DNA from: Pseudomonadota bacterium
GTDB lineage: Bacteria > Pseudomonadota > Gammaproteobacteria > Burkholderiales > Rhodocyclaceae
DNA: 39,869 nucleotides
Assembly (NCBI GenBank): GCA_021782315.1
Contig: JAJXVG010000007.1
Location: forward strand, 1 to 39,869
Direction: 5' to 3'
Within the stretch, counting starts at the first letter, position 1; each line of letters begins with the position of its first letter. The notes under the pieces were generated by a model. It did no database searches. It saw only the letters and a list, made by a program, of their open reading frames with translations, and was not told the DNA's origin. The translations under genes were made by a program, and so were the position numbers. Below are positions 6,173-32,060 of the stretch, in pieces.

Positions 6173-9100
6173 ATGCCAGGGACTTCCCAGCAAATCAAGT
6201 ACAAGGAAATACGCCAAGCGATCGCCCAGGTAGTTCTTCCCTATGTCGCGCTGGCGGCACTGTGGATATTGTTATCCGACCACTTGATGGACTATCTGGT
6301 GACGGACGCGGCAACGCGCCTGACGGTCGGCATGCTCAAAGGCTGGTTTTTCATCGCCGTTACCGCCGCCCTGCTATCCCTCCTGCTCTATCGCCTGCTG
6401 CGCGTCAGCATGATGCGCCGGGGCGCCGCCGAAGATGCCTGGGCCGTCCTTGAACAGGAAAGGGCACAGTTGCGAACCCTGCTCGATACCATTCCCGACC
6501 TGATCTGGCTCAAGGATCTCGACGGCGTTTACCTGAGTTGCAATCAACGCTTCGAACAATTTTTCGGGGCAAGCGAGGCCGACATCCGGGGCAAATCCGA
6601 TTTCGATTTCGTCTCGCCCGAACTTGCCGAATTCTTCCGCGCCAACGACCAAGCCGCCCTGGTGGCCGACCGGCCGCGCAGCAACGAAGAATGGGTTTCT
6701 TTCGCCAGCGATGGCCATCGCGAACTGCTGCACACCATCAAGGCGCCGATGCGCGACGGTACGGGGAAAGTGATCGGTGTCCTCGGTATCGGCCGGAATA
6801 TCACGCAGAACCACGAGTTGCAGGAGCGCTTCGCCGTCGCCTTCAATGCCGGCCCTGCCGGCATTTCGCTGAGCACCGTGGAAGACGGCGTCTATCTCGA
6901 CGTGAACCGGCGTTATCAGGAACTTCTCGGCTGGCAGCGGGAGGACTTGATCGGCCAACGCTCCGTCGATCGCCATTTGTGGGTCAGCGACCAGGCTCGC
7001 CATGCCTGGCGCGACCAGTTGAAGAAAACCGGCCTGCAACGGGATTATCAGACCGAATGGCGAAAAAGCGACGGGACGCCGATCCAGGTCAGCCTTTCCG
7101 CCGAAATCGTTCACCTCAGCGGCACACCTTACGTGCTGGCCTTTGTCGTCGACATTTCCGAACGCCGGCAGGCCCAGGAACAGATTCAACAACTCGAGCA
7201 ACGGCTGGCCATCGCCTTCAGGGCGGCCCCGGTCGCCGCCTGCATCACCCGCTTGAGCGATGGTCTTCTGGTCGAAGCCAACGAGCGCCTGCTCGACGAA
7301 TATGGCTGGCAACGAGAAGAGCTGCTCGGCAAGACCACCGTCGAGGCGGGCCTCTGGGGCAGCGCCGAAGATCGTCCGCGGATGCTCGAATTGCTGCGGC
7401 AAAACGGCCGGATCATCGACTTCCCCAGCACCGGCATCGGACACGACGGTCGGCAAAGGGAAATCAGCCTGTCGGCCGATACCGTCCAGATGGACGGCGT
7501 CCCTCATCTCGTCGTTTTCGTGGTCGATATCTCGGAACGCAGGGCAGCCGAAAGGGCGCTGGCCGAACGCGAGGAAATCTATCGCAGTATCGTCAGCAAC
7601 GCCGAAGACGGTATTTGCCTGATCGATCCGGAAACCCTGGACTTCATCGAGATCAACGACGGCGCCCTGCACGGCCTGGGCTATACCCGCGAGGAATTTT
7701 CTGGAATCAGGCTGCACGACATCCAGGTGACGATGAGCGAATCCGAAGTCCGGCAAAAAATCCAGCACATCCTGACCGAGGGCCGGGCCGTCTTTGAAAA
7801 CCAGCACCGCCGCAAGGACGGCAGCATCCAGAGTAACCGCGTCTCGGCCGTACAAGTCAAGGTCGGCGGCAAATGCATGTTCAGCAGCATCTGGCATGAC
7901 ATTACGGTAGCCAAGAAGGCAGCGGTAGAACTCGAACAGCATCGCAACCATCTGGAGGAACTGGTCGAGGCCCGCACGGCCGAATTGGAAACCGCCAAAG
8001 AGGCGGCCGAGCAAGCCAGCCGGGCAAAAAGCGCTTTCTTGGCCAACATGAGCCACGAAATACGGACGCCGATGAATGCCATCATCGGTCCCACCCACCT
8101 TGCCGAGCGCCATACCCGGGACGACGAACAACTGGTGCGCCTGAGCAAGGTGTCGGATGCAGCCCATCACCTGCTGTCGATCATCAACCAGATTCTCGAC
8201 ATTTCCAAGATAGAGGCCGACAAACTGGAACTTTTGCCGGTCAATTTCCTGCTTTCCCGCCTTATCGACAACACCAGCGAGTTGGTGCTCGACCGCCTGC
8301 AGTCGCGCGGCATCCGCTTTCATTGCGAAATCGACCCGGCCCTGCCCTCGGTGCTTCGCGGCGATCCCTTGCGGATAGGTCAGATTCTGCTCAATTACCT
8401 GTCAAACGCCGCCAAGTTCACCGAGAGCGGCAGTATTTCGGTCACGGTCGATCTCGTCGGGGCGGACGTCGCCAGCCTGCTCGTTCGCTTTGCCGTCACC
8501 GATACCGGCATCGGCATTGCGCCGGAGCATCAAGGCCGGCTGTTCAGCGCTTTCGAGCAGGCCGACAACTCGACCACCCGCCGCTTCGGCGGTACCGGAC
8601 TCGGGCTCGCCATCGCCCAGCGCCTGGCCCGTTTGATGGGCGGCGAAACCGGACTCGTCAGCCAGCCCGGCCAAGGCAGTACATTCTGGTTTACGGCTCT
8701 CCTGGGCATCGGCGACCGCGCGGAAGACGAGCCTCCCGGACAGATTTCCGCCGGCGAGGCCGAATACCTGCTGACCGGGAAGCATGCCCAGGCGCACATT
8801 CTCCTCGTCGAAGACAACCCGATCAACCAAGAGGTGGCGCTTGAACTCCTGCGCAGCATAGGCTTGCGAGTCGATCTCGCGGCCAACGGCAGGCAGGCCG
8901 TCGACATGGCTGCGGCGACCGCCTACAGCCTGATCCTGATGGACATCCAGATGCCGGTCATGGATGGCCTGACGGCCACCGGTCTCATCCGGCAAAGCGA
9001 ATCGGGGCGGCAGGTGCCGATTCTGGCCATGACGGCCAACGCCTTTGGCGAAGACCGCCAGCGTTGCCTCGATGCAGGCATGAACGACCATATCGCCAAG

Positions 9101-9607
9101 CCGGTCAACCCGGACAATCTGTACGCCACTTTGATCAAATGGCTGGAACCGCTCCCCGTCGATCCTCCTGTCGAAGACCTACCGGCCCAGCCGGTGACCG
9201 CCTTGCCGGAAATGACCGACGAGCATACGCTGACCGCCCTGACCGGGGTGCCCGGACTCGACAGCGGCTACGGCCTGCGGAATCTGCGCGGCAAGTTACC
9301 GAGCTACCTGCGCCTGCTGAAATTATTTCTCGCCACGCACGGCGACGACCATCTGAAGATCGATGCGGCCCTGGCAGCCAAGCAGGTAAAAAGCGCCGAG
9401 CAGATCAGCCACGCCCTGAAAAGCGTGTCCGGCAGCCTCGGCCTGACCGCCATCCACGAAGCAGCGGCGAGCCTGAACAGCGCCTTGCGCAAACAACTCC
9501 CGGCAGCCGAGATTTCATCACTTTTGCAGGGACTCGCCGAACGGATGCAGGAAACCGGAAATGGCCTGCACCCCATCCTCGAGCAGCAACCGAGCCAATC
9601 ACCATGA
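6173..9607 (+). CDS. Hybrid sensor histidine kinase, 4 PAS + HisKA + HATPase + REC + Hpt
   Basis: The 1144-residue membrane kinase has two N-terminal hydrophobic helices (about 20-35 and 52-76) with a very short periplasmic loop. Four PAS domains follow (about 100-215, 220-335, 340-455, 460-580). A coiled coil leads to HisKA with His628 in [11 protein letters not shown], then an HATPase domain (N-box [27 protein letters not shown]). A receiver domain has Asp924 in [11 protein letters not shown], and an Hpt domain has His1080 in [13 protein letters not shown]. This is a complete internal phosphorelay, BarA-like in layout. The residue after NAIIG is Pro ([11 protein letters not shown]), where the next kinase has Leu, which is unusual. 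It starts 3 nt after the HD-GYP gene, and its stop overlaps the next start (ATGA). The input signal is unknown. Confidence 0.95.
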
Positions 9608-12600
9608 TCCCCAGCCCATTGACCAAGCTCCAAGACATCATGACCATCGACGTGCGCAGCCTGCCGCCACACGCCACGCTCCGGGATGCCGCCCGGCTGA
9701 TGTCCGAAGAACATATCTCCAGCCTGCTCGTCATGATCGACGGCAAGGCCCTTGGCATCATCACCGAAAGCAACGTCCTCCGCGCCCTGCACACCCGCAC
9801 ACCGAGCGACATTCGCCTCGACGCCATCATGTCGCACCCCCTGATCACGGCGCCCGGAGAACTCGACCTGCTCAGCGCACGCCACCTGGTGGACCACCAC
9901 GGCATACGTCACCTCGTCGTCTCGACCCCGTCCGGCACCATCGAGGGCATCGTCAGCGATACCGATTTCCGCATGCACCTCGGCGTCGCCGCCTTCCATC
10001 ACCTGCAGACGCTGGAAGGCGTCATGGACCGCAAGATTCCGCAGCTTTCGCCGGAAGCGACGCTCGGGGAAGGTATTGCCTGCATGGTCAAGAATTCCGC
10101 GGACTACCTGATCGTCTGCGACAAGGAAAGGCCGCTCGGCATCATCACCGAGCGCGACATCCCTCGACTGGTCAATGCTTTCCCGCAACCGCACGGCATC
10201 GCCCTGCGGAAAACCATGAGCTCGCCGCTACGCACCGTCAACATCACCGCGCCGGTCGCAACGGCCCTGGAGGCAATGAACCGCTTCCGCATGCGACACA
10301 TGGCCGTCATCAACAATGAAGGCCAGGTCGTCGGTGTCGTCAGCCAGCGCCGCCTTTTCGAGCAACTGGCCCTGGAACGCCTGGAAAATGCCCTGCTGCA
10401 AGCCCGCCAGGAGCGTGACCGCCTGCGCCTGGAAACCCAACTGCAACTCGCTCTGGGCGTCGGCGGCGCGGGTAGCTGGGAATACCAGCACGACCTCGAC
10501 CGCCAGATACTCAGCAAAGGTCTGCTCGAACTCCTCGGATGCAATGCAGACGATGCTCCGGGCACGAGAGCCGACTGGGAAGAGAGAATCCACCCGGACG
10601 ACCGACAACTGCTGAGCGAGGAGGTTAACGGAGAAGCCGGGTCGAATACGGAATTTCGGGTGGTCGAGTACCGAATCCGCCATAGCGACGGGCACTGGTT
10701 GTGGGTGGAGGAACGCAGCTGCGTCACCGAATGCGCGCCCGACGGCAGCAAGAAGATCACCGCCGGCATACTCAACGACATCACCGAACGCCAACTGACC
10801 CGGCAGCAGATCACCCGCCAGAATCGAGCCCTGCGACTGATGAGCTGCGTCGCCCAGACCCTCGTCCGCTACACCGACGAAAAGGTGATGCTGGCCGAGA
10901 TATGCACGGTCGCCATCGACGTCGGCGGCTATCTGGCGGCCTGGGTCGGGGAAATTTCACACGACACCGGCAGGCATGTCATTCCCATCGCGGAATCGGG
11001 GCTTGCCGAAAACTACCTGAGCAGCATCGACATTTCGCTGGAAAATGTGCCAAACGGCCAGGGTCCGACCGGGCGCGCCATCCGCTCGGGCGTGCCGGCT
11101 GTCGTCAGCGACATAGCAAGCGATTCCTCCTTCGAACCCTGGCGAGCGGCGGCACTGGCGCTGGGTTTTCATTCCTCGATCTCGCTGCCGCTCCGGGTAG
11201 ATAGCCAGATTATCGGCGCCCTGACACTCTACTCGGCAAAGATCGCCCCCTTCGACGACGACGAACTCGCGCTGCTTGCCAACCTGGCCGGCGAACTCGG
11301 TCTCGGCCTGAGCATGCAGCGCTCCCGCCGAACCCTGGCCCAGAGCGAGGAAATGCTGTTGCAGGCACAACAGCTGGCACGACTTGGCCACTTCACTTTC
11401 GATCCGGCGACCGATACGCTGAGCGGCTCGCCCATGCACAATGAAATATTCGGTATCGATCCGGGTGAAAAGATCGATACCGAAGGCTGGCGAACCATGA
11501 TCCACCCGGAAGACCGGGACCGCATGAGCAGCTATTCGCGCGATCACGTATTTCGCGGCGGCCAGCCCTTCGACAACGAATATCGACTGATTCGCCGCAA
11601 TGACAGGCAGGTACGCTGGATTCACACGGTCGGCCAATTGCTTTACGGCAATGACGGCCGGGTCAGCCGCCTCTTCGGCACCAGCCAGGACATCACCGAG
11701 CGCAAGCACTTCGAGCAACGCCTGAGCCAAAGTGAAACCGACCTCAAGGAAGCGCAGGCCGTCGCCCACCTTGGCAGTTGGAAACTGGATATCGCCACCG
11801 ACGAACTCAAGCTGAGCGACGAGATCTTCAACATCTTCAGCCTGGAACGGGACAAGCCGCTGAAAATGGCGAGTTTCCACGCATGCATTCACCCTGACGA
11901 CCGCGACCGCGTCCTGGGCGACTGGGAGGCCGCGCTGCGCGGCCGGGGCTACGACAGCGAACATCGTATTTATGCCGGTCGAGGGGTTCGTTGGGTACGC
12001 GAGCAGGCGCACGTGCACTTCGACCCGTCCGCTCGTCCAATCTTTGTGGTCGGTACCGTGCAGGACGTGACCGAAAGACACGAATCCGAAGAGCAATTGC
12101 GCAAACTGTCGCTGGCCATCGAACAAACGCCGCACGGCATCGTCATCACCAACACCCGTGCCGAAATCGAATATGTCAATGAGGCTTTCGTCCGCAATAC
12201 CGGTTACGGCCGCGACGAGGTGATCGGGGTCAACCCCAGGATCATGGCCTCCAATCAGACGGCAAGGGACACCTACACCGCCATGTGGTCGACACTCAAG
12301 CGCGGCGAAACCTGGCGAGGGGAATTCATCAACCGGCGCAAGGATGGTTCCATCTTCACCGAATTTGCGATCATTTCCCCCGTCCGCCAGGCGGACGGAC
12401 AGATCACGCACTACCTGGCCATCAAGGAAGACGTCAGCGAAAAAAAGCGTACTCAATCCGAGTTGGACAATTACCGCCATCATCTTGAAACCGTGGTCGC
12501 CGAGCGGACCGAACAACTGATCCACGCCAAGGAAGAGGCTGAATCGGCGAGTCGGGCCAAGAGCGCCTTCCTGGCCAACATGAGCCATGAAATCAGGACG

Positions 12601-14322
12601 CCGATGAATGCGATTATCGGTCTCACCCACCTCGCCCAGCGCAGCGCCGCCGACCTCGAACAACGCGAGCGCCTGAGCAAGGTGGCCGATGCCGCACAGC
12701 ATCTGATGGCCATCATCAACGACGTGCTCGACATTTCGAAAATCGAAGCCGACAAGCTACAACTTGAAAACACCGATTTCTCGCTCTCCCGCATCTGCGC
12801 CACCGCCTGCGAACTGGTTGCCTCGCGCGCCGAGACGAAACATCTGCCCATTCGCTGCCAATTCGATCCGGCTCTGCCGGCCATGCTGCGCGGAGCCCCC
12901 TTGCGCATCCAGCAGATACTGCTCAATTTCCTGTCGAACGCCATCAAATTCACCGAGCGCGGCATGATCGACCTCAAGGCTCGCCTTATCGAACAGGAGG
13001 CCGGCCGGGTCCTTATTCGCTGCGAAGTGACCGATACCGGTATCGGCATTGCGCCGCGCGAAAAAAGCAGGCTCTTCCTCCCCTTCGAGCAGGGCGATGC
13101 CTCGATCACCCGGCGCTATGGCGGAACAGGCCTGGGGTTGGCCATCAGCCGTCGACTGGCCGAAGCCATGCACGGCACGACCGGCGTCGACAGCACGCCC
13201 GGCCAGGGCAGTACCTTCTGGTTCACCGCCCAACTGACCCAGGCGACATCCGGCGAACAACGCGCACAAACCGGCATCAGCCCACCGGCAAGCCACCGGG
13301 TCGGCGCCCACATCCTCCTGGCCGAGGACAACGACATCAACGCGGAAGTCGCCGGCGACCTGCTGCGTCATGCCGGATTCAAAGTCGACCTGGCCAGGGA
13401 CGGTAGCGAAGCGTTCGCCATGGCAAAACGTCTGCACTACGACCTGGTCCTCATGGACATGCAAATGCCGATCATGGACGGACTTGAAGCCACCCGACAA
13501 ATTCGCACCCTGCCAGGCTGGGGGAAGACGCCCATCCTGGCCATGACCGCCAATGCCTTCGACGAGGACAGGGACACCTGCCTGGCGGCCGGCATGAACG
13601 ACCACGTCGCCAAGCCCGTCGCCCCCCATGTGCTCTATGCGGCGCTCGCCCGCTGGCTCCCTGTCACCCCGATCAGCCAGCCGTCGACCAGTGACAACAA
13701 CAAGGCTGCCAAGATGCTGTCCGGGGTGGTCGGACTCAACAGCCAGTTCGGCCTGCAATCGGTACGCGGTCGAATGGAGAGCTATCTTCGCCTGCTCGCC
13801 AAGTTTTCGGAAAACCATATCGACGATTTCGCCCGCATCCGGGGCAATCTTGCCGACGGCCGCCAGGAAGAGGCCCGTCGCTATGCCCATACACTGAAAG
13901 GCGTATCGGCCACTCTCGGTGCCGTCCTCATCAACGGCATCGCGGCGGAACTCGAACTGGCCATCAAGGAGAACTGGGAAATATCGGCAATCGAACCGCT
14001 GATCGAACTCGCGGAAAATGCCTACGCTTCACTGCGGGAACAGTTGGCCGGTCTCGTTCAGACACCTGCCGCCAGTGAAAAGATCAGTAACGACATCGCG
14101 ACCGCAGCCTTGCTCGAACGCCTGCGGCGCGAACTGCAACAAGGTGAAATCAGCGTTCAGGAACTGGTTCGCCGGCAGGCGAATACCCTGCAGAAAGTGC
14201 TGGGCAACCACCACCGGGAGTTCGAAGAACTGGTCTCCGCTTTCGATTTCGAAGGCGCCCTGGCCTTCCTCAACTACGTCAGCCAGCAACTCCCGCAGAC
14301 CGGAGAGCAGGCGCCCGGCTAA
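9604..14322 (+). CDS. Giant hybrid histidine kinase with four CBS domains, PAS, GAF, REC and Hpt
   Basis: A 1572-residue protein without an evident membrane segment. The ORF track extends it to 9064, but that part lies antiparallel in frame over the preceding gene. The ATG at 9604 overlaps the previous stop (ATGA) and opens directly into the first CBS domain, so it is the better start. Order: four CBS domains (about 5-63, 70-128, 138-192, 200-257), a coiled coil, PAS (about 285-395), GAF (410-570), PAS (590-700), PAS (720-825), PAS (835-950), HisKA with His995 ([11 protein letters not shown]), HATPase ([18 protein letters not shown]), REC with Asp1285 ([11 protein letters not shown]), Hpt with His1429 ([13 protein letters not shown]), and a roughly 80-residue helical tail. 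Tandem CBS modules usually bind adenine nucleotides, which would make this a sensor of cellular energy state; that is inference. The kinase core closely resembles the upstream kinase, suggesting duplication. Confidence 0.95.
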
Positions 14323-24578: not shown

Positions 24579-26192
24579 ATGTTGAGACTGACCGAACTGA
24601 AGCTGCCGCTCGAGCACGACAATGATGCCCTGCGCCCGGCCCTGTGCCGACGCCTGGGCATCGCCGATACCGAGTTGATCGCCTTCAGCATTTTTCGCCG
24701 CAGCTACGATGCGCGGAAAAAATCGGCCATCACGCTGATCTACACGCTGGATTTCGAGGTCGGCGACGAAGTCGCGCTACTCGACAGACTGGCCGGCGAC
24801 CGCAATGTCGGCCCGACCCCGGATAGCCGCTACCGCTTCGTCGCCCAGGCGCCCACCGACCTGAAAAGCCGCCCGCTGGTCATCGGCACCGGCCCCTGCG
24901 GCCTGCTGGCCGGGCTGATCCTGGCACAGATGGGCTTCAGGCCGATTATCCTCGAACGCGGCAAGGCCGTGCGCGAACGGACCAGGGACACCTGGGGACT
25001 GTGGCGCAAGCACAAGCTGAACACGGAATCGAATGTCCAGTTCGGCGAGGGCGGCGCCGGCACCTTTTCCGACGGCAAGCTCTACAGCCAGATCAAGGAC
25101 CCGCAGCACCACGGCCGCAAGGTGCTGGAAGAATTCGTCAAGGCCGGCGCACCGGAGGAAATCCTCTACGTCAGCAAGCCGCATATCGGCACCTTCAGGC
25201 TGGTCAAGATGGTCGAAAGCATCCGCGCCACGATCACCGGGCTGGGCGGCGAAGTCCGTTTCGGCAGCAAGGTCGAGCACATCGACATCGTCGACGGCCG
25301 GGTTCGCGGGGTCGAACTGGCCGGTGGCGAGCGCATTGCCGCCGACCATGTCGTCCTTGCCGTCGGTCACAGCGCCCGCGATACCTTCCAGATGCTTCAC
25401 GAACAGGGGGTTTACATCGAAGCCAAGCCCTTCTCCATCGGTTTCCGCGTCGAGCATCCCCAGGCCCTGATCGACCGCGCCCGCTTCGGCCACAATGCCG
25501 GCAACGAAATTCTCGGCGCCGCCGATTACAAGCTCGTCCATCACTGCCAAAACGGCCGCGCCGCCTACAGTTTCTGCATGTGCCCCGGCGGCCAGGTGGT
25601 CGCCGCCACCTCTGAGGAAGGCCGCGTCGTCACCAACGGCATGAGCCAGTACTCGCGGGCCGAGCGCAATGCCAATGCGGCGCTGGTCGTCGAAGTGAAA
25701 CCCGAGGACTTTCCCGGCGACTATCGGCGCAATCCGCTGGCTGGTATCGACTTCCAGCGGCAATGGGAATCCGCCGCCTTCGTCGCCGGCGGCGGCACCT
25801 ATGCCGCCCCCGCCCAGCGCATCGGCGATTTCCTGGCCGGCCGGCCGTCGACCCGGCTCGGCACGGTCGACCCGTCCTACCAGCCCGGGGTGCACATGAC
25901 CGACCTGTCGAGCTGCGTCCCGCCCTACGTCATCGAAGCCCTGCGCGAAGCCATCCCCGCCTTCGACAAGCAGATACGCGGTTTCGCCATGGCCGACGCC
26001 GTGCTGACCGGGGTCGAAACCCGCACCTCGTCACCGATCCGCATCAAGCGCGGCAACGACTATCAAAGCATCAACACCCGCGGCCTCTACCCGGCCGGCG
26101 AAGGCGCCGGCTACGCCGGAGGCATCCTGTCGGCCGGGGTGGACGGCATCAAGGTGGCCGAAGCCGTCGCGCTGTCCATGCTGGGAAAATAG
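24579..26192 (+). CDS. Large FAD-dependent dehydrogenase (COG2509-type)
   Basis: The 537-residue protein has a roughly 90-residue N-terminal domain (MLRLTELKLPLEHDNDALRP) ahead of an FAD-binding Rossmann motif, LVIGTGPCGLLAGL. NVQFGEGGAGTFSDGKLYS and a closing YPAGEGAGYAGGILSAGVDG follow. This order fits the COG2509 family of uncharacterised FAD-dependent dehydrogenases. The track ORF begins at 24459 inside the cytochrome gene; the ATG at 24579 gives the family-like N-terminus. Two Cys-containing stretches (FCMCPGG, SSCVPPY) are conserved-looking and may have redox or structural roles. The substrate is unknown. The stretch beyond its stop is gene-poor. Confidence 0.9.
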   Translation: MLRLTELKLPLEHDNDALRPALCRRLGIADTELIAFSIFRRSYDARKKSAITLIYTLDFEVGDEVALLDRLAGDRNVGPTPDSRYRFVAQAPTDLKSRPLVIGTGPCGLLAGLILAQMGFRPIILERGKAVRERTRDTWGLWRKHKLNTESNVQFGEGGAGTFSDGKLYSQIKDPQHHGRKVLEEFVKAGAPEEILYVSKPHIGTFRLVKMVESIRATITGLGGEVRFGSKVEHIDIVDGRVRGVELAGGERIAADHVVLAVGHSARDTFQMLHEQGVYIEAKPFSIGFRVEHPQALIDRARFGHNAGNEILGAADYKLVHHCQNGRAAYSFCMCPGGQVVAATSEEGRVVTNGMSQYSRAERNANAALVVEVKPEDFPGDYRRNPLAGIDFQRQWESAAFVAGGGTYAAPAQRIGDFLAGRPSTRLGTVDPSYQPGVHMTDLSSCVPPYVIEALREAIPAFDKQIRGFAMADAVLTGVETRTSSPIRIKRGNDYQSINTRGLYPAGEGAGYAGGILSAGVDGIKVAEAVALSMLGK

Positions 26193-26768
26193 GGTATAGG
26201 GAAATTTCGGTTTGGGGGGGCTCCCCCACTGGCAGTTCGGTGCCTTTTGCCGCCGGTCGGTCCTTTGAAAAGCAGACGCTTAGCGTTTAGGCCGGCGCGG
26301 CTTTATCGCGACGATCCGTGTTGATGGATGGGCTTGGCGTCTGTGTGCCATAGATGCTCCATCACTCCTGGATAGATCACTGGCCTGAAAGACATAAAGC
26401 TAATGTCGCGCACATGGCTGAAGCCGGACCAGAGCAGGCGACTGCCTCTCAACCAGCGTATCGGGCAACCCTGGCTTCGATGCGCTTGATTTCTTCTGTC
26501 GCAGCGGAACACAAGGCGCCGACCCGCCCGTACAAGCGAAAGCCAGGCGGTGAGACAAACCGGCCCAGCAAGAGCGACTTGAACCAAAAACCTGCATTGA
26601 CAGCCATGAGGCAGACCTCGGGATTTGTCTCAACATTCTAGCGATGCAGTTGCCTCCTTAATGATGAGAGATGTGTCAATACGAACATATGCTAGCCAAC
26701 TACAAATTCGCATATTGCTCATTTTTAATGTATAGTTCACATCTTTATTACTTGATTAAGACATCATC
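26193..26768. other. Gene-poor, AT-shifted gap before the soluble chemoreceptor
   Basis: No established gene was recognised in these 576 bases. The first part has a G-run/C-run (GGGGGGGCTCCCCC) that could fold but lacks a T-tract. The middle holds one possible 52-codon reverse ORF, listed separately. The last 120 bases are clearly AT-rich and likely contain the chemoreceptor promoter. Codon-like structure in the longer track ORFs here is poor and none resembles a known family. Confidence 0.5.
26449..26607 (-). CDS. Possible 52-residue small protein
   Basis: This ORF is too short for the supplied track. It starts ATGGCTGTCAATGC with GAGG eight bases upstream, and ends in TGA. The product starts MAVNAGFWFKSLLLGRFVSP and ends in a charged amphipathic helix (TEEIKRIEARVARYAG). 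I do not recognise it. A good Shine-Dalgarno and a plausible helix are the only support; it may be a remnant or chance. Confidence 0.28.
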   Translation of the reverse strand: MAVNAGFWFKSLLLGRFVSPPGFRLYGRVGALCSAATEEIKRIEARVARYAG

Positions 26769-27887
26769 ATGTTTTGGGGTTCTGGTAAAGCTTTGTCAGC
26801 TGCGGGAGCTGAATTGGTCCAATTACGAGCAGAACTCCAAGCAAAAGATACTGAAAATCAACGTCTGCGTTACGAGGCGGATGCTTGTCGTGCCGAAGCA
26901 AAAGCCAAGGATGATGAGTGCGAAACCCTCAAAGCCGTGTTGCACCACCTCTCGGAGTTCAGTCAAACGCTTGGCGGCTCGCAGCAAAGTTTGGCGAGCA
27001 TGGCCAACCTGCTGCGCGAAGAACGAAATCAAGCCATTCAAGCAGCCGAGGTCTCTGTCTCAAGTGGGCAGACGACCACCGAAATCGCCACCAACCTCCA
27101 TCGCTTGGCGGAAAATTCTGCGTCAACTGCCAAAGAGGTTGGGATGTTGGCAAAGCAAGCGGATGAAATCAGTTCCATCGTTCAATTGATTCATGAAATT
27201 GCCGACCAAACCAACCTGTTGGCACTGAATGCGGCAATTGAAGCAGCAAGAGCGGGTGAATCGGGGCGTGGCTTTGCTGTTGTTGCCGACGAGGTGCGTA
27301 AACTTGCTGAACGTACAGCCAAGGCGACGCAAGAAATTGAGTCCTTGGTTGCCAGCGTCAGACAAAACTCGTCTTCAGCAAAAGATGCGATGGATGTACT
27401 TTCCGCCTCTGCAGATGACTATAGTCAGCGCGGTGAAAAGGCCACCGAGAGTATGACGCAGTTGGTCACGTTGAGCCGGAAAATGGAACTGGTTATCGCT
27501 GGCAGCGCCCTTAAAAGCTTCATTGAGGTGGCCAAGGTTGACCATTTGGTTTTCAAATTCCGAATTTACATGGGACTTTTCGGGCTTGAGGCCTTATCGC
27601 CCGGAAGCGTTGCCTCTCATACCGAATGTCGCCTAGGTAAGTGGTATTACGAAGGTGAAGGGCGCGAAAGCTTTAGTCGGCTATCGGATTATCGAGACCT
27701 GGAGGCGCCCCATACCGATGTGCACAAATTCGGTATTGCCGCGCTTAGCGCAATGCAGACTGGAGATATGCCAGCCATGTTACGACAGGTTCAGGCCATG
27801 GAAACAGCCAGCTTGCAGGTAGTTGCTTCCTTGGACCGTATGGCTGAGGCAGCGGCAAACCAACCGGATTTACTTTGCCACCATTAA
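26769..27887 (+). CDS. Soluble methyl-accepting chemotaxis protein with C-terminal CZB zinc-binding domain
   Basis: The 372-residue protein has no membrane segment. Residues about 10-70 are a coiled coil. Residues about 80-230 are a short MCP signalling hairpin, with the conserved tip [22 protein letters not shown] and [16 protein letters not shown]. Residues about 255-360 are a chemoreceptor zinc-binding (CZB) domain: [25 protein letters not shown] and [10 protein letters not shown] supply the likely His/Cys/His/His ligands. CZB receptors respond to zinc or oxidants such as hypochlorous acid, by family knowledge (TlpD, DgcZ). The adaptation and CheA/CheW partners are not in this window. The Shine-Dalgarno is weak. 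Base composition is more AT-rich than the flanks, hinting at transfer. Confidence 0.93.
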
Positions 27888-28183
27888 TTGCCAGCACGCA
27901 AGAGCAGTTCATCGCCATCGAAGCGAGCGGCCACTTGACTGATGGTTCCCATATTTTGGAAAAATTCAAAATTCATAAATTGAGCAGTTGTGGTCAAGAG
28001 TTACGACATGGGAATGTGCAGTCACTGGACGGCGCACAAGGCGATACAATTTGTCGAAAATGCTTAAGCAAAACAAATCATATGCAAAACATTCCCACAT
28101 GGCCGAACACGCGCGGAAACGTCGGGGGTGGCCGGGTCGAGGCAGTGAGCGAGACAATTTGCTTTCCGCAATCCAGCCATTGA
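27875..28183 (+). CDS. Possible small Cys-rich ORF downstream of the CZB receptor
   Basis: This frame opens with TTG at 27875, overlapping the receptor's 3' end, and stays open for 102 codons. Its first 65 residues look protein-like ([20 protein letters not shown]) and contain CGQELRH and ICRKC, which could be a zinc site. The rest looks like non-coding sequence. No family is recognised and the start is poor. It may be a decayed gene fragment. Confidence 0.2.
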
Positions 28184-28346
28184 GCCGAGATAATTGAGGC
28201 CTTGGCTATTCAAATTGGAAGGCGACATCGACCGGCAGTTCCTGGCCGATTCCGGCCATCCGACTTTCCTCTTACCGCCGGTCAGCCAAGCGAGGTTCGG
28301 CGGTGAGGAGCCAGGAATGTATCCGATGCCCCCCCGGCGATCCGCT
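27888..28346. other. Gap between the two chemoreceptor genes
   Basis: Apart from the weak ORF listed above, no gene is supported in these 459 bases. The right part (about 28225-28290) has a short GC-rich stretch with CCGGCAGTTCCTGGCC and TACCGCCGGTCAG. It is loosely like CTGGCAGTTCGGTGCC and TGCCGCCGGTCGG at about 26229-26264. The two could be decayed copies of one intergenic element, but the match is too weak to call a repeat. Confidence 0.35.
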
Positions 28347-29971
28347 TCAGGCGATGCGGAAATTGGCAATTTCCAAAATGAGTCTTTCTGCCAAGCCACG
28401 TAAATCGTGCGATGAGCAACTGACATTTTGTGCCGCCGCATTGTTCTCTTCAAGCATGTTGGCGATGCGCTCCACGTTCCTGGCGATCTCGGTCGACGCT
28501 TCCTTTTGGGCACTCACCGAGGAACTGATTTCGGCAACGCTCTCCATTGATTGCTCGACCGTTTCCCGAGATTCCGAGAGGGTTGCCATTACCTCTCCAG
28601 CCAACACGGTACTGGCTTCTATCGACTTCTCCCCGGCAACGATGGCCTCCTGAACCGCCTGGGATTGCTTCATGATCGAATGGGTCACGGTGTCGATTTC
28701 ACCCGCCGATTTCCCCGATTTCTCAGCCAGTTTCCTGACCTCATCGGCAACCACAGCGAACCCCCGTCCCGTCTCACCGGCTCGAGCCGCTTCAATGGCA
28801 GCATTAAGCGCCAGGAGATTGGTCTGGTCGGCGATTTCGCGGACATCCCGGGTCATTCCAGTAATCGCTTGAGTGCTTTGAACGAATTCGTTGACTGTTT
28901 GAGCGATGCCTTCCATTCTGTATTTGATACAAGTGATTTCATCCACCAGACGGATTACTTTCTGGGAACTCTCCGTGGTGCGGCTGACATTTTCTTCCGA
29001 TCTCCCATGCAGATGGGAAGCCGTCTCGGAAACCGAAGCGATGGACACTGTCAGTTCCTGAATGGCGGCGGAACTCCCTGTCACCGCGGTCAACTGGTGA
29101 TCAGACACTTCGGCCAAGGTTCGCGATGAACCGGACAAGCGTTCCGAGGCCGTGTTTACCTGCTGGCTGGCGTTGAGGACGTTGCTTATCAGCATCTGCA
29201 ACTGCCCCATCATGGTGTTGAAGGCATTTGCCATGCGTCCGATTTCGTCTTGATAGACAAGCTCGGCACGGATGGTCAGGTCACCGCTGGCGGCAATGTG
29301 CGTCATCGTCGCTTCAAGAGAACGCAAAGGCTTGGTCACCTGACGATAAAGCAGAAGGCTGAAGGCCGATAGGCTGATAGGCTGATGGTGGCGAGCAATG
29401 TAGCGCCGGTAATCGCTGCCACTGCATTTGACAGACTCTCATTTAATGCATCGATGGCGGCATCCTTCGAGCGCGCTTTCTCGACGCGCACCGTATCGAC
29501 GATCTGGGTCAGTTCGACGAGATACTGCCCGACGGTGCCATCCAGACTTGCCTCAGCCATCGCTTGCTGGCCGGCAAGCTTGAATTGGGTCATCTCATCG
29601 ATGGCCTTAAAATAATTACCGAGGCTCTCTTTTGCCTGCGCAATCAAGCCAAGTTGAGTATCGTTGCTCGCCTTTTCCTGTTGCAGATCGATACCCTTCT
29701 GCAGGGTCGCCTTGTGGGTTGCCAATCGATCGCTGGCACTCTTGGCCAGGCCGGCATCGGGGGCGGTAACGACACTCATTGCCGCTAATTGCACATCCTT
29801 GAGCTGCGCCACCAGATCGGCGGAGGCCAATGCGGACGGCATGATGTTTTCGGTAACGACCTTGACCGCCGTGGCGTTCCTGCGTGTCTGCAGAATGGAA
29901 TATGCGCCAATTGACGTCATGGCGACCAAGGTAATCAGCAATAGCAAAACAATCCTAACCCGAACACTCAT
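28347..29971 (-). pseudogene. Membrane methyl-accepting chemotaxis protein split by a frameshift
   Basis: Two reverse-strand ORFs make one receptor. The 5' part (from ATG 29971, AGGGAG site eight bases upstream) gives a membrane helix (VRIVLLLLITLVAMTSIGAY), a four-helix-bundle periplasmic sensor (about 30-190) and the start of the second membrane helix; it then stops at 29336. The 3' part (track start 29339, a GTG) supplies HAMP ([20 protein letters not shown]) and a full signalling domain ([20 protein letters not shown]). At the join the coding strand has AGCCTATC twice. Removing one copy gives [20 protein letters not shown], a perfect second helix into HAMP, and a 538-residue receptor of normal layout. 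As it stands the gene is off or broken. It could be phase-variable. Confidence 0.9.
29368..29386. repeat. 8-bp tandem duplication (2.4 copies) at the chemoreceptor frameshift
   Basis: The plus strand reads GATAGGCTGATAGGCTGAT, two units of GATAGGCT plus GAT. Eight is not a multiple of three, so the extra unit shifts the frame. One unit fewer restores the reading frame across the second transmembrane helix. Confidence 0.95.
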
Positions 29972-30380
29972 CAGTGAAACTCCCTTGATACCAGACACTA
30001 CGCGCCAGTAATCGCAAAAGCGATGTAACAAAAACGCAAAGCTAGCCAGGATTCTGAGCTAAAAATTTTGCGGTTTTATTACCCAATCAAGCCACCATTG
30101 ATGAATTTGTGTTTATTTGCATTTTACCGTCGTAAGCGCTCCGCCAAAATTCTGCCGGCTATTCTGAATCCACCCCATGGGGAGCGTCCGCTTTCGGGAG
30201 TCGCTATCTCGATGATCGATTGGCGGCGACGAATCCGGGGGGATGTCAGCCTACAACGAATGCTTGGCCCAGGTGACGACCTTACGTGCCGGGGAAGGCG
30301 CTCGGCACACCGAAGAAGCAAGTATGCAGACCAACGGATTTGCGGCGCAATCCCTTCCCCCTTCTTGACCCTGTTCGAAT
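29972..30380. other. Gap between the chemoreceptor and the CNB-domain gene
   Basis: No gene is supported in these 409 bases. The part next to the receptor start is AT-rich and should hold its promoter (minus strand). Track ORFs here (30068-30454 +, 30124-30321 -) have no family resemblance and overlap the next gene or lack ribosome-binding sites. Confidence 0.5.
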
Positions 30381-30752
30381 TTACGCCGCGGTCGTCACCA
30401 ACAACTTGTTCGTTGCTCGAAGTCGCTCTGCCATCAGGCGCATCACCTGAATAGCGAAATATGGCGTTTGTTGCACCAGGAACTGGAAACGCCTTTCATC
30501 GACAACAACAAACTCACAATCAGTCTTGGCCACCACGCTCGCTGAGTGCGGCCCCGGCGACACCAAGCCCATCTCGCCGACGATGCCGCCATGCACCAGT
30601 GTTTCGACGCGCTGCTTCTGAACAAAGACCTCTGCGGTACCGGTTTCAAGGACGTACATCTGATTGCCCTCATCGCCTTCGCGAAAGAGTGCCTGTCCCG
30701 CCGGAACCATGACTTTTGCCGTGCTGTGAGAGAAGATCTCAATGGGAATCAT
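30381..30752 (-). CDS. Stand-alone cyclic-nucleotide-binding (CNB/CRP-sensor) domain protein
   Basis: The 123-residue protein consists of one CNB beta-roll: VPAGQALFREGDEGNQMYVLETGTAEVF, then the region of the phosphate-binding cassette (GGIVGEMGLVSPGPHSASVVA), then a C-terminal helix (MRLMAERLRATNKLL). In the cassette the usual Arg before the final Ser/Ala is replaced by His (PHSAS for PRSAT), so binding of cAMP or c-di-GMP is uncertain. It has no helix-turn-helix and no enzymatic domain. The ATG start is supported by AGGAG about ten bases upstream. It lies 52 bp after parA on the same strand and may share its mRNA. Small CNB-only proteins are generally thought to regulate a partner protein. 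Confidence 0.88.
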   Translation of the reverse strand: MIPIEIFSHSTAKVMVPAGQALFREGDEGNQMYVLETGTAEVFVQKQRVETLVHGGIVGEMGLVSPGPHSASVVAKTDCEFVVVDERRFQFLVQQTPYFAIQVMRLMAERLRATNKLLVTTAA

Positions 30753-30804
30753 GACTATTTGTCTCCTGCTTATTTTTATGAAGCAATCCTGGCAAATCTT
30801 CTGC

Positions 30805-31431
30805 TCAGTGTCGGCTTACAAGCCAATTCAACAACGGGCGCCATTGAATGTCCATAGCCGTAGAGTTCGAGTCATTGTCGAAAAGCGTCAATCCGGTGTC
30901 GGCCGCTTGTAAATAACGCTGCGACTGCGCGATACAGGTAACAACCGGCAGGTCGAACCGCTCAAGGAATTCAAGCAACTGGACAAAGGCGTGCGTACGA
31001 ACATCGACACGCATCCCGACGACGCCAATATCTACCCGCTCCTTGCGAACAGCCTTGGTTGCAGCAAGTTCCTCAAAGAACTCACGGGTAGCCAGCATAT
31101 CGAATCGCGATGAAGAGACTGGAACAAGCACCTTGTCCACTGCATTCAATGCCTCTTTCAAGCGCTTCCCATGCAAACCGGCAGGCGTGTCCAGAATGGC
31201 GAAATTGCAGTTCTTGGGCGGCATCTGGAACGCCTCTTCGGAAATTTCCCAGTATCGTATGGGGGCCAGGTGACCGGGGCGAGCCGCCAGCCAATGCCGG
31301 CTGGATTGCTGCCGGTCCAGGTCGCCCAAGTAGACGATTTCATCGTGCCGGGCAAACCAGCTTGCTATATGAATCGCCAGGGTTGATTTGCCGCATCCAC
31401 CTTTGGGATTGGCCACCATGATTTTGCGCAT
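30805..31431 (-). CDS. Small ParA/MinD-type P-loop ATPase
   Basis: The 208-residue protein opens MRKIMVANPKGGCGKSTLAI, with the deviant Walker A KGGxGKS/T that defines ParA/MinD ATPases (Lys10 and Lys15). GDLDRQQSS is the switch-I-like motif and FAILDTPAG is Walker B. It has no N-terminal helix-turn-helix, and its length equals type Ib ParA/ParF proteins. Such ATPases form nucleoid-bound gradients that move or space a cargo (plasmid, chromosome origin, carboxysome, chemoreceptor cluster). It is divergent from a gene for a basic, RHH-like protein, with a palindrome between them, and is followed by a CNB-domain gene and chemoreceptor genes. No ParB/parS-type partner was seen. The cargo is unknown. 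Confidence 0.92.
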   Translation of the reverse strand: MRKIMVANPKGGCGKSTLAIHIASWFARHDEIVYLGDLDRQQSSRHWLAARPGHLAPIRYWEISEEAFQMPPKNCNFAILDTPAGLHGKRLKEALNAVDKVLVPVSSSRFDMLATREFFEELAATKAVRKERVDIGVVGMRVDVRTHAFVQLLEFLERFDLPVVTCIAQSQRYLQAADTGLTLFDNDSNSTAMDIQWRPLLNWLVSRH

Positions 31432-31456
31432 ATGAATTGCTTAACTTCCGCTTAGT

Positions 31457-31482
31457 GTATAAAGTGTTTATATAGTTTATAC
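31457..31482. promoter_or_regulatory. 26-bp palindromic operator candidate in the parA / RHH-gene divergent promoter
   Basis: Arms GTATAAA (31457-31463) and TTTATAC (31476-31482) are perfect inverted copies separated by 12 AT-rich bases. The site fills the centre of the 77-bp gap between the two divergent start codons, so it must overlap both promoters. A natural guess is autoregulation by the RHH-like protein, as in ParG/Omega systems. Confidence 0.6.
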
Positions 31483-31508
31483 CGTTGATGCCACTTTAGG
31501 AGCGCAAA

Positions 31509-32060
31509 ATGAGCAAGGAAACCGCAGTCCAGCCCGCCAAGGAAGAAGTCAAAGCATCGGCAGTCGTACCAAAGAATGTGCCGTTAGGCGCCTCTCCCAT
31601 GGATCAGGAAGGCAATCAACAAGTCGCCACTGCCGCTGCGGCAGGAAAGGTCGCCCCCAAGCCCAGGGCTGCGAAGAAAGTGCTTGCCGAAGAACCGGGG
31701 AAGAAGGCGGTTGTTGAAAAATCAACACCGACCCCGAAGCCCCCTGCCAAACAGGCAAAGAAGGCAGCCGTTGCAGCCAAGGAAAAAGTTGCCGCAGCGC
31801 CGAAATCGGACAAGACAGCCAAGGTGAAAAAGCAGGCGCCGAAGAAACCAAGACTGGTCCGCGACAGTTTCACCATTCCGGAAATCGACTACGCGCTCTT
31901 TGCAGCCCTCAAGCAACGCGCGCTGAATGCGGGTGTTGAGGTCAGGAAGGGTGAGGTGTTGCGTGCCGCCCTCGTCACCTTGGCCAGGCTTGATGATGCT
32001 GAACTCGTCAAAGCAATTGGCCTGATTGAACGCATCAAGACCGGGCGCCCGAAAAAGTAA
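31509..32060 (+). CDS. Lys/Ala/Pro-rich protein with C-terminal ribbon-helix-helix-like domain
   Basis: The 183-residue protein has two parts. Residues about 1-115 are low-complexity and strongly basic (AKKAAVAAKEKVAAAPKSDK), like a histone H1 tail, suited to non-specific DNA binding. Residues about 118-183 (RDSFTIPEIDYALFAALKQR, then VRKGEVLRAALVTLARL) show the strand-helix-helix order of RHH DNA-binding proteins, ending in a basic RPKK. A Shine-Dalgarno (AGGAG, seven bases away) supports the ATG. It is divergent from the small ParA gene, so it is probably the ParA partner and possibly its repressor. This is inference from layout; I know of no characterised homologue. Basic tails of this kind also occur on PHA-granule proteins such as PhaM. 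Confidence 0.8.
   Translation: MSKETAVQPAKEEVKASAVVPKNVPLGASPMDQEGNQQVATAAAAGKVAPKPRAAKKVLAEEPGKKAVVEKSTPTPKPPAKQAKKAAVAAKEKVAAAPKSDKTAKVKKQAPKKPRLVRDSFTIPEIDYALFAALKQRALNAGVEVRKGEVLRAALVTLARLDDAELVKAIGLIERIKTGRPKK

Follow-up and report, generated by a model that had tools for sequence, protein, structure and literature searches.

In the window (the whole stretch of 39,869 nucleotides analysed here), a chemoreceptor gene is split into two ORFs at a short tandem repeat. It is likely that this gene once encoded a functional chimeric chemoreceptor, and that it was inactivated by a single slipped-strand duplication of 8 bp in the part that encodes the second transmembrane helix (TM2). Such a lesion would be young and revertible on rare occasions, with no sign of an evolved switch. 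The assembly to which the window belongs, as contig C28, is a draft of 3.39 Mb in 291 contigs, 89% complete and probably a metagenome bin; the two-copy state of the repeat comes from this one assembly.

An 8-bp tandem duplication in the TM2 codons

The receptor gene occupies the minus strand of positions 28347-29971 as two overlapping ORFs of 211 aa and 330 aa (Table 1), which meet in a GTGA at 29336-29339. The 5' ORF is preceded by GGGAG, 8 nt upstream of its ATG. No single frame continues through TM2 into the HAMP domain: the N-terminal frame ends with a TGA at 29336-29338, and the C-terminal frame opens at 29339. On the coding strand, the unit ATCAGCCT is present twice without a mismatch, and it is at this repeat that the receptor frame is lost. 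The tandem, written ATCAGCCTATCAGCCT, is the same repeat that the first-pass annotation had given as two successive copies of AGCCTATC at the join of the two ORFs; both the split and the repeat that it described are confirmed. Two degenerate units come next, ATCGGCCT at 29363-29370 and TCAGCCT at 29356-29362, and TRF delimits an array of about four units of period 8 at 29356-29386 (two perfect and two degenerate).

Table 1. Features of the split receptor gene and of the surrounding low-GC stretch, in window positions
Feature	Position	Strand	Evidence or setting
5' ORF: Met start, TM1, periplasmic four-helix-bundle sensor (4HB_MCP_1), out of frame inside TM2	29336..29971	-	translation, Pfam
Perfect 8-bp tandem duplication, ATCAGCCT ATCAGCCT	29371..29386	-	sequence, TRF
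Degenerate units ATCGGCCT and TCAGCCT, shared by the one-copy state	29356..29370	-	sequence, TRF array
Chimera seam (approximate): LLLYRQV of kinase type, then HAMP of genus-MCP type	29331..29348	-	two-sided alignments
3' ORF: HAMP and MCP signalling domain, hairpin intact, possible GTG restart	28347..29339	-	translation, Pfam
MCP with CZB domain	26769..27884	+	in low-GC stretch
Cyclic-nucleotide-binding protein	30384..30752	-	in low-GC stretch
ParA-like ATPase	30808..31431	-	in low-GC stretch

The period-8 run extends over 19 bp (29368-29386) with 11 matches, and is the sole period-8 run with at least 8 matches in the window. Shuffled windows contained 0.82 runs of at least 8 matches per window, and the presence of some 8-bp tandem within 40 kb is unremarkable. 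A tandem of this length that coincides with a frame change is not a product of chance, because runs of at least 11 matches occurred only 0.017 times per shuffled window and the probability of a period-8 run of at least 8 in a random 80-nt zone is 0.0045 (0.45%). The copy number of the unit alters the reading frame: when one copy is subtracted from the coding length (1625 minus 8), 539 codons remain, and the open frame encodes the 538 residues that had been predicted for the one-copy form.

Sequences with related sensors were gathered from a collection of 84,980 species genomes as well as from the genus and the family. In most homologues with a related sensor domain, the YR[QR] motif that closes TM2 is found at offset 205, counted from the Met; the exceptions are few and mostly without the exact motif, and one has it at 203. 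In the one-copy window sequence, the YRQ at the TM2/HAMP boundary falls at offset 205 exactly, which independently supports the duplication as the lesion, and 29 residues separate IDALN from RQV, the same number as in the homologues L002 and L078. Register and length thus match those of close homologues, and no lesion other than the single 8-bp duplication was found in the gene. Repair of the frame by one additional base would make TM2 three residues longer than in relatives.

None of 91 distinct homologous TM2 regions, all from distant homologues (identity 59% at most), carries a period-8 tandem. Of the 91 homologous frames, 90 continue for at least 300 aa from the Met; the lone exception is most likely L121, whose 273-codon frame runs to its contig end. 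Comparison with the orthologous gene in related strains had been proposed in the first-pass annotation. No same-species or near-identical orthologue was present in 77 genus genomes, a scan of genome contigs with the single receptor protein yielded no relative, and the exact DNA of the duplication site was not found in viral contigs.

Both receptor halves are full length and free of further stops. The sensor, HAMP and signalling domains that characterise 4HB-class MCPs all exceed their Pfam cut-offs, spread over the two ORFs: 4HB_MCP_1 in the 5' ORF (E 4.8e-7, 30 bits versus a cut-off of 27), and HAMP (E 1.5e-12, 48.1 bits versus 25) and MCPsignal (E 3.3e-36, 125.2 bits versus 34.6) in the 3' ORF. 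At 23 columns found near-invariant among 85 relatives, the sensor half shows no deviation. The hairpin of the signalling half is intact, but this half deviates at 19 of the 164 columns found near-invariant among its 16 nearest relatives, and has a long branch (0.82). The 19 deviations may be ordinary divergence, given that this half is an outlier to the clade with which it was compared, or may alternatively reflect relaxed constraint. We infer that the lesion is probably young relative to neutral decay.

The duplication most likely arose by strand slippage in the degenerate ATCAGCCT-ATCGGCCT-TCAGCCT stretch, which the one-copy allele also contains and whose degenerate units could have seeded the event. 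The two-copy product is predicted to be a membrane sensor stub of 211 residues, scrambled in TM2 and without output, and the signalling half would at most be weakly restarted. One copy would correspond to ON and two or three copies to OFF, while a fourth copy would bring the frame back and lengthen TM2 by eight residues. With one copy lost, the gene would be whole again, and such reversion is expected as a rare mutation. A similar situation is found in mexT of Pseudomonas aeruginosa PAO1, where the 8-bp insert is itself a tandem copy. As proposed for the receptor, an 8-bp insertion in a coding gene inactivates the protein, and in mexT it is cleanly lost under selection, which restores function (PMC3200333). 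Reversion of the receptor by loss of one copy, as previously suggested, is plausible given this precedent. However, mexT encodes a regulator for which both alleles are known and reversion has been observed, whereas the receptor is represented by one allele in one assembly. Similarly, the frameshift scars of Mycobacterium tuberculosis (ScarTrek, PMC8339072) involve silencing by an indel that is undone by a second indel; those scars are backed by thousands of isolates, and the receptor by one sequence.

A receptor of two ancestries

From alignments on both sides of the seam, the receptor is a natural chimera of a 4HB sensor of the Hpt/HATPase sensor-kinase type and a genus-type HAMP-MCP signalling half, an origin that the first-pass annotation overlooked. 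The sensor half is 58-59% identical to L002 and L078, which are sensors of another architecture. L002 lies in the same genome (contig C183) and is truncated by the end of that contig, which leaves its output unseen; L078 belongs to a genus relative and combines 4HB, HAMP and Hpt. Many betaproteobacterial genes have this 4HB-HAMP-Hpt layout, and some additionally have a HATPase match. In a maximum-likelihood tree, the window sensor falls inside the sensor-kinase clade (branch 99/95), separate from the family's ordinary 4HB MCPs. This clade comprises 50 rows labelled kinase, two MCPs and the window, where L002 and a few other contig-cut rows bear the label because an MCP half was not detected.

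Over all of its 330 residues, the signalling half shares 59-65% identity with 16 genus MCPs, of which L069 is the best match, and the sensor domains of those 16 proteins do not match the window sensor. Ancestry changes after LLLYRQV, some 10 codons beyond the duplication. With a single copy of the unit, the HAMP register across the seam is perfect, which suggests that the fusion was probably functional before the duplication occurred. The receptor thus has the domain order of 4HB-type MCPs (Pfam 4HB_MCP_1, HAMP and MCPsignal), although over two ORFs, together with their HAMP domain and signalling hairpin; it differs from ordinary members in that its frame is broken in TM2 and its sensor groups with 4HB-HAMP-Hpt-HATPase sensors. 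Additionally, L123 (Candidatus Propionivibrio aalborgensis) and L128 (Accumulibacter) are MCPs with the same sensor type (51-52%), but their signalling halves differ from that of the window (28-31%). Fusion of this sensor type to an MCP output has thus probably happened more than once.

Alternative readings of the split gene

The first-pass annotation had raised the possibility of a phase-variable chemoreceptor that would make chemotaxis heterogeneous in a population. In such a receptor, high-rate changes in the number of 8-bp copies would toggle the gene between ON (one copy) and OFF (two or three). Several features are compatible with such a switch: a tandem direct repeat sits inside the coding frame, its unit length is not a multiple of three, degenerate flanking units could promote slippage, and the gene is otherwise intact. 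The simple-sequence-repeat contingency loci of Haemophilus, Neisseria and Campylobacter likewise have an in-frame tandem repeat whose slippage could toggle the frame (PMC11868660). In contrast to these loci, the receptor has a short array with only two perfect units, and its repeat is not conserved. An evolved contingency locus was expected to keep its repeat at the same place in relatives, and the absence of a period-8 tandem from all 91 TM2 regions, although these are from distant homologues, argues against a conserved switch. A review of phase variation moreover asks for spontaneous switching in both directions above a minimum rate, customarily detectable without selection (PMC11868660), whereas the receptor is represented here by one allele. 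In the collection examined, a literature search returned no phase-variable methyl-accepting chemotaxis protein with a tandem-repeat frameshift. The proposal of phase variation is thus unsupported, and we regard it as very unlikely. The more specific idea that gain and loss of the unit toggles a chemoreceptor with a kinase-type sensor, and so provides bet-hedging in chemotaxis to an apparently free-living bacterium, is a long shot.

An error in assembly or binning could also have produced the duplication, or have brought the two halves together in the first place, in a genome of 291 contigs that is 89% complete, and the frame break does lie only about 10 codons from a seam between differing ancestries. 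However, the k-mers usual in assembly, like any read, should be longer than the 19-bp periodic run, and the perfect HAMP register of the one-copy seam is unlike that of a random join. The two halves also have a similar GC3 (0.65 and 0.63). An artefact is therefore considered unlikely. It is highly improbable, too, that the split gene works as two proteins, with a restart at the GTG producing a soluble HAMP-MCP signaller alongside the sensor stub in the membrane. A GTGA overlap is a layout used in translational coupling, and the 3' ORF begins exactly at HAMP, yet inspection of the sequence revealed no Shine-Dalgarno motif before the GTG, TM2 would be scrambled, and 90 of the 91 homologous frames are unbroken. 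Three of the four bases that can precede TGA give a start codon (ATG, GTG or TTG) by chance, and the overlap was rejected as proof of a two-protein operon for being too likely by chance.

Genomic setting and implications

The receptor lies in a stretch from 26 to 32 kb (26001-32000) with a GC content of 0.51-0.55, versus 0.58-0.67 elsewhere in the window; this seemingly lineage-specific stretch also went unremarked in the first-pass annotation. Within it, the ParA-like ATPase, the cyclic-nucleotide-binding protein and an ORF at 31509-32057 form a block with 77-80% DNA identity in six genus genomes, and in a seventh the ParA and cyclic-nucleotide proteins are on one contig but apart. Similarity of the block stops near 30,390, short of the receptor, and the genes beyond this point differ from genome to genome, so that the receptor pair looks like lineage-specific accessory DNA. 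In the relative G172, where adjacency was compared, the genes flanking the low-GC stretch are on one contig, 75 kb apart, a distance at which their adjacency says little on whether the stretch was inserted. No tRNA was found in the window.

Several other features of the region and its relatives were observed. The module at 30384-32057 may be a small dispersing unit. In one genus relative, a locus (L212, G280:C29:8000-27500) holds within about 15 kb a ParA (68%), a cyclic-nucleotide protein (57%), an MCP with 43% identity to the signalling half and a protein with the same sensor domain (59%). Elsewhere in the window, a gene at 9064-14319 (+) encodes a 1752-residue hybrid histidine kinase with CBS, GAF, several PAS, receiver and Hpt domains, and adjoins a PAS hybrid kinase at 6173-9604 (+).

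Overall, inactivation by a single duplication is an ordinary event of a kind already known, namely a short tandem duplication that causes a frameshift in a probably dispensable receptor. The genome has 18 MCP-signal and 6 CheW-domain matches, and loss of one receptor is therefore probably tolerable. If both alleles were to occur in one population, the duplication would provide a heritable on/off input to chemotaxis outside the usual host-associated pathogens. The chimera itself suggests that phosphorelay-type kinases and chemoreceptors exchange sensor domains at the TM2/HAMP boundary.
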